NCBI RefSeq assembly: GCF_000017205.1
Contig: NC_009656.1
Span: 682,001-746,000 of the forward strand
Length of the DNA: 64,000 bases
Reading direction: 5' to 3'
Source of the DNA: Pseudomonas paraeruginosa PA7
GTDB lineage: Bacteria; Pseudomonadota; Gammaproteobacteria; Pseudomonadales; Pseudomonadaceae
How positions within the stretch are numbered: position 1 is the stretch's first letter; each line of letters begins with the position of its first letter. Below, piece after piece: positions 5,843 to 38,900 of the stretch. The notes beneath the pieces are model-generated. The model was not told where the DNA came from and ran no database searches. It saw nothing but the letters and a program-made list of their open reading frames with translations. The position numbers and the translations under genes were made by a program.

Positions 5843-5992
5843 TCACATGCGCTCGGAGCCGCAGTGCTGGATGTACACGCCGCGTACCATCTTGTCTTCG
5901 GTGCGGCGTGCCCAGTCTTCGGCGTCGCGCTTGGTGCGGAAGGTTTTTTCGTTGGTTGGCCAGCCCGTTTTGCGGACCACGGGAAGGGCCAT
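5843..5992 (-). pseudogene. Remnant of a tyrosine integrase (N-terminal fragment)
   Basis: A 49-codon frame reads VRKTGWPTNEKTFRTKRDAE, then DWARRTEDKMVRGVYIQ, and stops soon after. This is the usual N-terminal AP2-like/SAM-like part of island and phage integrases; the catalytic domain is absent. It is not a copy of the prophage integrase at 34741. It lies about 100 bp outside attL, downstream of the tRNA 3' end, so it looks like the scar of an older element at the same site. The breakpoint follows GVYIQ, after which the sequence is unrelated. Confidence 0.6.
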
Positions 5993-6092: not shown

Positions 6093-6165
6093 AAAGCCGC
6101 GCAGTGCGCGGCTTTGAAGGTGGTGGGCCCACACGGACTCGAACCGTGGACCAAAGGATTATGAG
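6093..6165. repeat. attL: left 73-bp attachment repeat
   Basis: A perfect direct repeat of 35840-35912. It contains the 3' part of the CAU tRNA from the anticodon loop to CCA, plus the hairpin aaagccgcgc...gcgcggcttt that acts as the tRNA terminator. The copies diverge at 6166 (C) versus 35913 (T). This copy lacks the tRNA 5' half and so is not a functional tRNA. Confidence 0.95.
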
Positions 6166-6551
6166 CCCGAAATCAAGGCGCATCCCGTCGTGGAAAATGT
6201 AGGAATAACAGGTTCTTACGGGATATTTTCTGCCCATTTCCGGCAATGTTACCGGTGGCTGTGGACGTAATGTGGACACGCAGGAACTGTACCTGCTTCA
6301 TTCCTTCACAATTCCTTTCACAGTGTGAAACGGCTCCTGGGCTCTCCAGGCCCAGCAGGGGCGCGTCCTGGGAGCCTGGTTTCATCTCACTCCGGGTTTC
6401 ACGATTTCCACGACACACGGCTCGTCGGCGGGAGGGGGATAAGTGCGTTTTCACGAAGATTTTTTGGGGAAGATTGATTTTTCTGTAATATGCTTTATTG
6501 GCTTTAGCTTTGGGATGCATAAATAAGTTTTCAGCTTTTGAAGGTAGGAAC
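6166..6551. other. Left attP arm and upstream region of cargo gene
   Basis: About 390 bp without a supported gene. It contains two TGTGGAC motifs (6260-6266 and 6271-6277) that match a pair near attR and are candidate integrase arm sites. From about 6440 the sequence becomes AT-rich, marking the start of the cargo segment. No firm promoter call can be made. Confidence 0.6.
6260..6277 (+). promoter_or_regulatory. Candidate integrase arm-type sites (left arm)
   Basis: TGTGGAC occurs at 6260-6266 and 6271-6277, an 11-bp repeat period. The same motif with the same 11-bp period occurs at 35767-35784 on the other side of the att core. Paired direct repeats flanking a core are typical of integrase arm-binding sites. 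Confidence 0.5.
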
Positions 6552-34406: not shown

Positions 34407-34440
34407 TCTGCTAACCTCCGCAGGGATATTTTCGGAATAA

Positions 34441-34456
34441 GTTCCTTACGCGGAAC
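34441..34456. promoter_or_regulatory. Repressor operator O1
   Basis: GTTCC-TTACGC-GGAAC (16 bp shown, with A/C flanks). Its centre lies 24 bp from that of O2. It sits just downstream of the early promoter -10 and overlaps the expected promoter of the repressor-integrase operon. Confidence 0.75.
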
Positions 34457-34458
34457 CT

Positions 34459-34487
34459 ATGTTGGTTCCTTAAGTGGAACCTGTCAA
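34459..34487 (-). promoter_or_regulatory. Early (cox-rep) promoter
   Basis: Minus strand: TTGACA (34487-34482), a 17-bp spacer, then CAACAT (34464-34459) as a weak -10. Operator O2 occupies the spacer exactly. Confidence 0.6.
34464..34481. promoter_or_regulatory. Repressor operator O2
   Basis: The perfect 18-bp half-site pair GGTTCC-TTAAGT-GGAACC, matching O3 at 28063-28080 in both half-sites and the spacer length. Confidence 0.8.
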
Positions 34488-34499
34488 GAGAGGGGAAGA

Positions 34500-34736
34500 A
34501 TGGATTTGCCAGCGAAGTTCAAGGCGATACGTGCCAAGGAAAAGCTCACTCAGGCGGAGTTCTGTGCCTTGGTGGAGATCAGCATCAGCAGTTGGAAGAA
34601 ATACGAGGCATCCATAATCGACATGGGGGCCACTCCCCTCCTGAAAGTCACCAATCACCCCCGTTTCCTGAAGTACACGCTGTGGCTGATGACAGGGACC
34701 ACGGCTCCAGCGTGCGGCCAGGTGAGCCCGGAGTGA
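34500..34736 (+). CDS. Lysogeny repressor (small HTH protein)
   Basis: 78 aa, beginning [20 protein letters not shown]. The HTH is [20 protein letters not shown]. It lacks a RecA-cleavable C-terminal domain, so induction is probably not by LexA-type self-cleavage; P2-like phages behave this way. The operators lie just upstream. Integrase begins 5 bp after its stop, so both form a lysogenic operon. Ribosome site AGGGGAAG is 4-5 nt from the ATG. Confidence 0.75.
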
Positions 34737-34740
34737 TCCC

Positions 34741-35925
34741 GTGACGATCAGGAAGCTGGACGATGGCCAGTGGCTTGTGGATTGCCGGCCCGAGGGGCGC
34801 TATGGCCCCAGGATCCGGAAGAAACTACGGACCAAGAACGAAGCACTGAACTTTCAGAACAGGATCATGGGCGACGGGGCCCGGGGCGAGTTCGAGAAAC
34901 GCCCGGCCCGCGACGAACGCCGGTTGTCTGAGCTGGTGCGGCTGTGGTTCTCATTGCACGGCCAGAACCTGAAAACGGGGGCCGAGCGGCTGCGTCTGCT
35001 GGAAGCGATGGCCGAGCGCATGGGCGATCCGAAGGCCTACCGGTTCGATGCGGCGATGTTCGCGCAGTATCGCGCCGAGCGTGCCGAGGGCCAGCACGTT
35101 CGATCCAGCGTCGGCAGGGGCCGGCGCAAAGGGGCGGCGGGTAAGGGCGTCGGTGCAAACACTCTGAACCATGAACTGGCCTACCTCAGCGCCGTTTTCA
35201 GCGAGTTGAGCCGGCTTGGTGAGTGGCGGGGTGACAACCCGCTGGCCAGCGTGCGCCCGCTGAAGTTCGACGACGCGGAGATGGTGTGCTTGGAGCTTGA
35301 CCAGGTTGATGCGCTCCTGGACGAACTCAACACCCGGGACTCAGCGGCGGGGCTGATCGCCGAAGTCTGCCTATCCACGGGGGCGCGCTGGGGTGAGGCC
35401 GAGTCCCTGCAGGTGCGCCAGGTGCATGGCGGCATGGTGCATTACAGCCGCACGAAGTCGAGTAAGAACCGCTCTGTCCCGATCTCCAAAGACCTAGAGC
35501 GCCGCCTGTTGGCCGCGCTGCCATTCCGGAGCGGTTACAACACGTTCCGCCGGGCTGTTGAGGCTGTTGGATTGGATCTGCCGGAAGGGCAGCTTACACA
35601 CGTCCTGCGGCACACGTTCGCGAGCCACTACATGCGCAACGGTGGCGACATCATCACGTTGCAGCGGGTCCTGGGCCATGCCTCGCTACAGATGACCATG
35701 CGCTATGCCCATTTCAGTCCTGGCCACATGGCCGAGGTGGTCCACCTGCACCCGCTCGCTGGACGGTGTGGACCTTTTGTGGACCAAGGTGAGGAAATGA
35801 AATCGGAAGGAGGGGCTATTTCGGTGGGCCAGAAAGGCGAAAGCCGCGCAGTGCGCGGCTTTGAAGGTGGTGGGCCCACACGGACTCGAACCGTGGACCA
35901 AAGGATTATGAGTCCTCTGCTCTAA
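34741..35925 (+). CDS. int: Prophage tyrosine integrase
   Basis: 394 aa from a GTG start with GGAG upstream. The N-terminal arm-binding and core-binding domains are followed by the catalytic residues TGARWGE (Arg I), HVLRHTF (His-x-x-Arg) and [16 protein letters not shown] (His and Tyr). The family match is to HP1/P2-type integrases. The last 55 residues run past the catalytic Tyr, through the tRNA terminator hairpin and into the antisense of the tRNA. The final codons therefore come from attR and change on excision. Confidence 0.92.
35767..35784 (+). promoter_or_regulatory. Candidate integrase arm-type sites (right arm)
   Basis: TGTGGAC at 35767-35773 and 35778-35784, period 11 bp, inside the 3' part of int. 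It mirrors the left pair at 6260-6277. Confidence 0.5.
35840..35862 (-). terminator. tRNA terminator hairpin
   Basis: On the minus strand AAAGCCGCGC-AGTGCGCGGCTTT-like inverted repeat directly follows the tRNA CCA. It is part of the att repeat and is also translated, on the other strand, as integrase codons. Confidence 0.7.
35840..35912. repeat. attR: right 73-bp attachment repeat
   Basis: A perfect copy of 6093-6165. It ends one base past the first anticodon-loop positions, so recombination occurs within the tRNA between its anticodon loop and 3' end. Here the repeat joins the chromosomal tRNA 5' half and restores the gene. Confidence 0.95.
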
Positions 35926-35944
35926 CCGACTGAGCTATAGGCCC
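35868..35944 (-). tRNA. tRNA with CAU anticodon (tRNA-Met or tRNA-Ile2)
   Basis: 77 nt with encoded CCA. The acceptor stem is GGGCCTA/TGGGCCC, the anticodon loop CTCATAA gives anticodon CAU (35910-35908) and the T-loop is TTCGAGT. The extra loop TGGTC resembles E. coli Ile2 (lysidine-modified), but elongator Met cannot be excluded by eye. It is the prophage integration site; the gene is intact after insertion. Confidence 0.92.
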
Positions 35945-35960
35945 CCAGAAGGTCGGCGGA

Positions 35961-38900
35961 TTATACCGGCGCTTCGCGGGGAGCGCCAATCGGCTGGCGC
36001 GGTTTGAGGAACTTGCTGGCGAACAGCTCGGCGGGCAGCGGCGGGCTGAGGACGAAGCCCTGGATCTGCTCGCAGCCTTCGTGGGTGAGGAAGCTCTGCT
36101 GGCCCTCGGTTTCCACCCCTTCGGCGATCACCGTGAGCTGCATGCTGCGGCCGAGGGCGATGATGGCGCGGGTGATGGCGGCGTCGTGGGGGTCGTCGGG
36201 AAGGCCGCGGATGAACGACTTGTCGATCTTCAGGATATCCAGCGGCAGGCGCTTGAGGTAGCTGAGCGAGGAGTAGCCGGTGCCGAAGTCGTCGATCGCC
36301 AGTTGTACGCCGAGATCCTTGAGGCCGCGGAGCACGCCGAGGGCTTCCTCGGTCTGGTTCATGATGAAGCTTTCGGTGATCTCCAGTTGCAGCCGCGAGG
36401 GCTCCAGGCCGGACTGTGCCAGCAACTGGCGGAGGCGCTCGATCAGTTGCGGCTGGCCGAGCTGGGCGCCGGCGAGGTTCACCGACAGCGGGCCGAACGG
36501 TGCGTGCAGCTTCTGCCAGTCGCCCATCTGCTGGCAGGCATGTTCCAGCACCCAGTCGCCGAGGGGCAGGATCAGTCCGCAATCCTCGGCGAGGGGGATG
36601 AAGCGTTCCGGGGAAATTTCCCCGAACAAGGGGTGGTGCCAGCGCACCAGCGCTTCGGCGCCGACCAGCAGGCCGCTTTCCAGGCTCAGCTTGGGCTGGT
36701 AGTAGAGCAGCAGTTCGTCGCGTTCGAGGGCGCGACGCAGTTCGGTTTCCAGGGCCATGCGTTCGGTGGCCAGGAAGGTCAGCTCGCGGGTGTAGTACTC
36801 GATGCGGCTGCGCCCGCGGGACTTGGCGCGGTACATGGCGGCGTCGGCGTTCTTCACCAGGGTCGGCGCGTCGTCGCCGTCCTTGGGGAACAGGGCGATG
36901 CCGATGCTGGCGCTGACGAAGAACTCATGGCCATCGGCCTGGAATGGCGCGGTGAAGGCGTTCAGCAGCTTGCGTGCGACATGCTCGGCATCGCTTTCCT
37001 GGTGCAGGCCGGGGAGCAGGATGATGAATTCGTCGCCGCCCAGCCGGGCTACGGTATCGACATCGCGCAACTGGTCGCGCAGGCGCTCGGCGATGGCCTT
37101 GAGCAGCAGGTCGCCGGTGGGGTGGCCGAGGCTGTCGTTGATGTGCTTGAAGCGGTCCAGATCGATGAACAGCACGGCGCCGGGACGGCTTTCCTCGCGC
37201 GCCTCGTCGAGGGCGTGGTCAAGGCGGTGCTCGAACAGCAGGCGGTTGGGCAGGCCGGTGAGCGGGTCGTGGTGGGCCTGGTAGTCGAGCCGCGCCTGGG
37301 CGTACTTGAGGGTGGAGATATCGGCGAAGACCCCGACGAAATGGGTGATCTCGCCCTGCGGATTGTGCACCGCGCTGATGGTCAGCCACTCGGGATACAG
37401 CTCGCCGGTCTTGCGCCGGTTCCAGATCTCGCCCTGCCAATGGCCCTCGCGTTCCAACTGGTTCCACATGGCCAGGTAGAAGGCACGGTCGTGCTGCCCG
37501 GAGGAGAGCAGGCGCGGCGACTGGCCGAGGGCTTCCTGCTCGCTGTAGCCGGTGATCTCGCTGAAGGCGCGGTTGACCGCGGTGATGCGCTGGCGGGTAT
37601 CGGTGATCATCACCCCTTCGGCGGTGCTTTCGAAGACGGTGGCGGCCTGCTGCAACTTTTCCTCCATGAGCTGGCGCTCGGTGACGTCGCGGGCGATGGT
37701 CAGCACGCAGTCCTCGCCGCCGATGCTGATCTGGTGGGCGGACATTTCGCATTGGCGGATGCTGCCGTTGCGGATCAGTACGGGGGCGGTGAAACCCTGG
37801 GTCAGAGTATGGTGGCGCACCAGCGACATCAGGCGCTTGCGGTCCTCGGGGTCGACCCACAGGCCGAGTTCGAGGGTCGAGCGCGAAGTGACTTCGTCGC
37901 GGCGGTAGCCGGTGAGGCGGCTGAAGCCTTCGTTGACGTCGATCAGCGTGCCGTCCTCCAGGCGGCTGATCAGCAGACCGTCGGGCGAGGCGTGAAAGGC
38001 GTTGGCGAATTTTTCCTCGGAGATCCGTAGCAGCTCCTGGGTCTCCAGCAGGCGGGTGATGTCGCGGATCACCACCACCAGCGCCGGGCGCTGGTCGAGG
38101 GTCACGTGCTGGGCGCTGAGCAGGGCACTGAAGGTATCGCCGTCACGGCGCCGCAGCGGTACCTCGAGGTTGGCGAGGTTGCCCTGGGCGAGTTTTTCCA
38201 GTACCTGCGGGCCGAGCCCGGGGGCGCCCCAGATGCCCAGTTCGGTGGCGGTCTTGCCGAGAGCCTCCGTGGCGGCGATGCCGATCTGCTGCTCGAAGGT
38301 GCTGTTCACCGCGAGGAAGCGGCCATCGGCGCCGTTGGCCAGCACCACCATGTCCGGGCAGTGGTGGAACACCGAGGCGAATTTCTGCTCGGACAGGCGC
38401 AGGGCCTGTTCGGTGTGCTTGGTCTCGGTGATGTCGATCATCAGGCCGCGCAGGAGCAGCTCATGGCCCTGCCCGATCAGTGTGACCAGGTCGCGGATCC
38501 ACACCACCCGGCCGTCGGCGGCGAGCATCCGGTAGTCGAAACTGTGGTCGCGGCCGGCCTGGCTTTCGCTCAGGCAGTAGTCGATGGCGTGTTCGGCGTC
38601 GTCGGGGTGCAGGGTGCGTTGCCAGAAGCCTGGCTCCAGCCACTCGGCCAGGGGATAGCCGAGCAGGCGCTCGGCATGTGGCGAGACATAGGTGAAGCGG
38701 TTTTCCGTCAGGCGCATCTCCCAGGCGATGGCGTTCAGGCTCTCCACCAGGCCGCGGTAGTGCTGCTCGCTGTCGCGCAGGTCCTGTTCCAGCTGGCGGC
38801 GCCGGCTTACCTCGCGGCGCAGGCGGCGGTTCATGGCCAGCAGCACGGCGACCGAAACCAGGATCAGCAGGGCGACAGGAATGCCGTAGCGGGCCAGCGC

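Follow-up and report, generated by a model that had tools for sequence, protein, structure and literature searches.

Does the integration of a prophage rewrite the C-terminus of the integrase that carries it out, and would such a change matter to the enzyme? The question is raised by an integrase gene in the window, the 64,000-nucleotide stretch of Pseudomonas paraeruginosa PA7 DNA analysed here, whose reading frame runs through the attachment core of its own prophage.

A prophage integrated at a CAT-anticodon tRNA gene

An exact 73-bp direct repeat, present at 6093–6165 (attL core) and 35840–35912 (attR core), brackets a prophage of about 29.8 kb (29,747 bp). A scan of 10 proteins shows that the element has phage genes for head, tail, lysis, and primase functions. 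It is a relative of phage phi3, for which the record gives a P2-family capsid. The repeat comprises the 3′ part of a tRNA gene and a hairpin. The attachment target, a tRNA gene with a CAT anticodon, lies on the minus strand at 35868–35944; ARAGORN reports it as tRNA-Met and it matches Rfam RF00005 with 72.1 bits, although its features seem closer to those of a lysidine-type tRNA-Ile2 than to those of a tRNA-Met. The complete tRNA at one end, the fragment at the other, and a core that ends at the anticodon loop identify a tRNA-gene prophage of the anticodon type. The att site was matched in 25 of 25 genus genomes searched, its own genome included.

To the left of attL, on the minus strand at 5846–5992, lies a truncated integrase-like gene of which the N-terminal part remains (MALPVVRKTGWPTNEKTFRTKRDAEDWARR...); in our reading it encodes an integrase, and a 94-residue frame overlapping the remnant has no Pfam match. 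Its full counterpart is an open frame of 377–391 codons beside the same tRNA in four other loci (L149, L151, L152, and L159), and the site therefore seems to have been used earlier by a second kind of element. Two more int relatives lie elsewhere in the same genome (G000:C1), at 5191261–5192406 (58%) and 5529377–5530342 (47–52%), which may thus carry more such elements or remnants.

The int frame crosses the core and ends differently in the two states

The int gene (34741–35925, plus strand) starts with GTG at 34741 and encodes a 394-residue protein in the prophage. It matches Pfam Int_N (4.1e-35) and Phage_integrase (8.8e-22), as well as a PHROG integrase (8.2e-63), and residues 54–342 match PDB 5c6k (E = 1.9e-49), which we take to be P2 Int, and 1aih from HP1 (1e-43). 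In an alignment of 30 integrase sequences, R216, K239, R290, H313, and Y322 are invariant and H287 is nearly so. These six are presumably the catalytic residues R, K, H, R, H, and Y, and together with the solved homologues they place int among the P2/HP1-type tyrosine integrases. A small gene on the plus strand at 34500–34736 ends 4 bp upstream of int; it has no Pfam match and corresponds in place and order to a gene annotated as a transcriptional regulator in phi3 and BIBS67.

A core ATG at 35908–35910 is in frame with int, so the prophage form ends in ...QRIMSPLL, closed by TAA at 35923–35925. The initial annotation had proposed that this frame crosses the attR repeat to end in MSPLL at 35925, that after recombination of attL and attR it runs on into the left sequence to a stop at 6202, and that int lies antisense to the tRNA over 58 bp; all three points are borne out by the sequence. 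With the prophage arms joined in silico, the circle form is 402 residues long, ends in ...QRIMSPKSRRIPSWKM (its C-terminal sequence is also given as ...IMSPKSRRIPSWKM), and stops at TAG at 6200–6202. The two tails were described as five versus thirteen residues after the ATG. Their ends do differ, but MSP is common to both, and the true difference is LL against KSRRIPSWKM, or two residues against 10. Integration should thus change the last few Int residues of this prophage, as read from its two junctions. Neither tail (...SPLL or ...SWKM) resembles, by eye, an ssrA-like tag, which in this genus reads ANDDNYALAA.

A frame that crosses the core is unsurprising in itself, because among 43 distinct tRNA genes from the fetched loci, 70 of the 129 antisense frames pass the anticodon loop before reaching a stop. 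Somewhere within the gene, 87 of the 129 are closed (three of three for the window tRNA), and a frame without a stop of its own is therefore often ended by the target.

Sister phages keep a single tail

Phages phi3 (Phitrevirus) and BIBS67, the nearest named phages, are of the same phage type as the window prophage and share its tRNA core and an int that overlaps it. Their integrases are about 91% identical in protein to that of the window, and the DNA of all three is identical over 35251–35755. Both phages, however, lack one base, 35811, in a G-rich run, which makes the tail one base shorter. Their frame reads ...GLEPWTKGL and then meets a TGA inside the core, giving an identical tail in attR (phi3) and attP (BIBS67). 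Because this one-base difference ends the frame in the core, phi3 and BIBS67 keep one tail before and after integration. The proposal that integration rewrites the C-terminus of int therefore holds at the sequence level for the window prophage and fails for these two phages. Likewise, a circle in which the frame ends at the same place as in the prophage, named in the initial annotation as evidence against the idea, is not what the joined arms of the window give, but it is nearly what phi3 and BIBS67 present. Retention of the exchange in close relatives, a yardstick of our own rather than one from the Mx8 papers discussed below, is likewise not seen throughout, with both phages stopping in the core.

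The crossing frame occurs in three of the five close records compared, namely the window, L039, and L040, the last two being IMG/VR contigs, of which L039 is possibly the same strain; phi3 and BIBS67 are the other two. A 31-base core scanned against IMG/VR matched 25 stretches, of which many are attL ends, and an integrase frame enters the core only in L039 and L040. At 64–71% identity, int stops upstream of the core or tRNA in eight relatives (L010, L132, L133, L138, L147, L180, L181, and L182), which are those in which a core or tRNA could be identified; in L041–L044, L121, L176–L179, and others, the search did not find the site.

The records of these phages also bear on the recombination itself. 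The phi3 record opens at the attL crossover and also has the attR junction. The attP junction to be expected from these two, ...ATTATGAG followed by CCCATCC..., is present in BIBS67, which was deposited as a complete phage genome; the attP expected for the window prophage from its joined arms is ...ATTATGAGCCCGAAATC.... Since the phi3 attR and attL crossover match the attP junction in BIBS67, the assumed exchange between attL and attR is supported by the junctions of the sister phages.

We considered and rejected the phi3 record as a source of free-phage attP, given that one end is the attL crossover and the other has a full tRNA with further DNA beyond it. That DNA contains a reverse transcriptase gene (L119/L265, NC_030940.1, record positions 1–2756), and with these two ends the record reads like a prophage with flank; the reverse transcriptase DNA is possibly a group II intron in the host flank. 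In the BIBS67 record (L120/L268, PQ287640.1, 9626–9892), the int frame is broken close to the N-terminus, on account of which the annotated integrase begins late.

The exchanged residues lie beyond the conserved integrase

Conservation among the 30 aligned integrases stops at P338, and none of 10 solved relatives matches past residue 342. In an AlphaFold model of the 394-residue prophage form, pLDDT is below 50 across residues 347–394 and about 30 across 351–394, values that partly reflect the few aligned sequences with a tail. The post-catalytic coding stretch (35756–35839, plus strand), which we read as the P arm of attP and which includes the one-base difference at 35811, has variable sites at 5 of 84 positions against 1 of 505 in 35251–35755 (window, L040, phi3, and BIBS67; Fisher p = 2.8e-4), with both regions picked by us and the missing base counted as one of the five. 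Variation is thus higher in the tail than in the catalytic stretch just upstream, yet the tail is not the fastest-changing part of int: the first 260 nt of the gene are only 88% identical to phi3 and hence more divergent. The 37 nt that close int in the excised circle (6166–6202, plus strand) are 54% identical to BIBS67, compared with 55% for the next 56 nt and 92% for 6346–6440, and few parts of the P′ arm are less conserved than this coding stretch. Neither the site variation among window, L040, phi3, and BIBS67 nor the identity of the circle tail to BIBS67 points to selection acting on the tail as protein, and such non-conservation may still be compatible with a lineage-specific effect. An influence of the tail on stability or directionality, raised in the initial annotation, finds no support here, the tail being outside the conserved integrase, predicted to be disordered, variable, and unswapped in phi3 and BIBS67.

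The DNA past the end of the conserved domain looks like the P arm of an attP. A pair of TGTGGAC repeats spaced by 11 bp (35767 and 35778; 35767–35784, plus strand) lies within int codons (CGPFVDQ), and a matching pair with the same spacing is found on the P′ side (6260 and 6271; 6260–6277, plus strand); these two pairs account for four of the six copies on both strands of the 29,747-bp prophage. From this arrangement, we infer that the TGTGGAC repeats are candidate arm-type Int sites. P2 Int presumably uses a similar sequence; our literature searches returned no text giving the P2 Int arm sequence. A comparable layout exists in Vreelandella, where AGTCAA occurs in pairs spaced by 11 and 8 bp. 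An exact six-base repeat at 11 bp was found in 14 of 23 related loci with an antisense tRNA nearby versus 2.0% of random window segments, a background of 104-bp segments drawn from the window alone.

The distance to the tRNA is nearly fixed, and the stop codon drifts

Our search matched 203 integrase loci, of which 14 fell short of residue 330 and two had no stop, leaving 163 distinct ends, 136 of them judgeable. An antisense tRNA or tmRNA lies within 400 bp of 26 of these 136 ends; int overlaps it in four and stops before it in 22. Across the 23 loci with a gap below 200 nt (gaps of 293–324 in L180, L181, and L132 were excluded), the distance from the domain end to the antisense tRNA is nearly constant at 50–109 nt (SD 12.3), or 78–109 nt once the partial L227 is dropped. 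The stop position, in contrast, floats, lying anywhere from 9 to 165 nt beyond the end of the domain (SD 48.1). The 23 loci come from the search and are not independent, because many are close relatives, and the statistic is descriptive. The overlap of int with the tRNA stands at one extreme of a graded series, in which the gaps are 14, 20, 42, and 49 nt and up.

A Halomonadaceae clade with conserved crossing frames was considered and rejected. The int frame there is closed well upstream of the antisense stretch that was matched, and tblastn matches reaching residue 391–394 bridge a stop codon in eight loci (L191, L211, L212, L216, L217, L218, L225, and L249). True overlap in this set is confined to L195 from Vreelandella utahensis, whose tail is shared by L087 from viral_contigs, and to L227, a Chromatiales MAG with a tRNA-Lys and a partial int. 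In Vreelandella, AVL is swapped against GRN, with an attP form of 359 residues equal in length to the attR form; this is an independent case of an att-crossing int. The Vreelandella element (L195/L266, G398:C11:202286-211976) spans only about 9.7 kb between two 56-bp repeats, which is small for a P2-like phage, and is perhaps a satellite or remnant.

Comparison with known systems

The principle of an att-crossing integrase is already in print. In Mx8, the gene of the tyrosine integrase IntP spans attP and acquires a different 3′ end when the phage integrates (Tojo 1996; Magrini 1999; passages in PMC6070905, PMC4701971, and PMC4383910); 112 residues are lost and 13 gained, with a change in activity or specificity (passages in PMC6070905 and PMC4701971). 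The window int resembles the Mx8 gene, as portrayed in those passages, in having a frame that passes through attP and terminates differently in the two states, attR and attP, its circle form being deduced and supported by the BIBS67 attP. It differs in that only 10 residues give way to two, past the conserved domain, and in that sister phages lack the exchange.

Other systems share single features with the window, as far as the cited passages describe them. In streptococcal rumA ICEs, the integrase gene likewise swaps its 3′ end upon integration (PMC4701971), but these have a serine integrase and a protein-coding target gene. Mycobacteriophage BPs, with integration-dependent immunity, also has attP in a coding gene with two C-termini (PMC4557955), but that gene is a repressor whose viral form carries an ssrA-like tag, whereas the window core lies in int and the tails end in ...SPLL and ...SWKM. 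Archaeal suicidal (SSV-type) integrases likewise contain att, and integration splits their gene into inactive parts (PMC8371274); the window core starts about 27 codons past the conserved end, and the conserved domains stay whole. Islander allows for integrases that extend across attP (passage in PMC4383910). The open-licence papers searched contain no description of the att-crossing int of the window phage, and the literature search found no papers on phi3-type phages at the CAT tRNA; the queries on altered integrase C-termini brought up only BPs.

Origin of the tail exchange

The tail exchange is most probably a neutral by-product of an int–attP module with a drifting stop codon, a reading favoured because two close relatives lose the swap through a one-base difference. 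In this P2-like phage, int and attP would form one fused module: the conserved integrase finishes near codon 340, and a P arm of paired, putatively Int-binding repeats sits directly behind it. The spacing between this arm and the core hardly varies, and the int stop would be free to drift along the arm. In the window lineage, no stop remains before the core, and the frame passes through to be closed by whatever follows: in the prophage a TAA on the antisense strand of the tRNA D-loop, in the circle a phage TAG. Both Int proteins would presumably be made, with tails irrelevant to activity. Att-crossing integrases could then arise without selection, attP spacing seeming constrained as DNA while the stop drifts. 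A drifting stop, together with a tRNA antisense strand that often provides one, therefore offers a null model for judging claimed C-terminal switches, and the integrases of phi3 or BIBS67 and the window, whose frames are one base apart, amount to a natural experiment on the importance of the tail.

It seems unlikely that the exchange is instead a switch, in which the lysogen Int would differ in stability, activity, or site choice and so tune integration and excision as in Mx8. The core is exactly where the two frames diverge, the second, independent case in Vreelandella points the same way, and Mx8 offers a precedent with an altered enzyme (passages in PMC6070905 and PMC4701971). The swap is nevertheless missing from phi3 and BIBS67, and the tails are short, unrelated across lineages (LL/KSRRIPSWKM and AVL/GRN), and outside the conserved domain, with the prophage form predicted to be disordered; Mx8 replaces 112 residues by 13, here 10 by two.

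We give quite a low chance to the antisense overlap itself being what matters, with int transcription across the tRNA, or opposing tRNA transcription, limiting Int in the lysogen. The 58-bp overlap fits such a role, as does a simple scan that found no terminator-like site on the plus strand from 34426 to 36300, but with the stop lying before the tRNA in 22 of 26 loci with an antisense tRNA, nothing about it is specific to a crossing frame. It is very improbable that the longer basic tail of the circle (KSRRIPSWKM, against ...SPLL in the lysogen) alters Int stability or arm binding; if it did, a single indel would decide whether the integrase of a phi3-like phage is fixed or senses integration. 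Finally, a one-base sequencing or assembly error in the G-rich run near 35811, with a true end in the core as in phi3, would account for the run length differing by one base from phi3 and BIBS67 but is extremely improbable, as L039 (though possibly the same strain) agrees with the window, and L040 has substitutions of its own in the run yet keeps the window's length.
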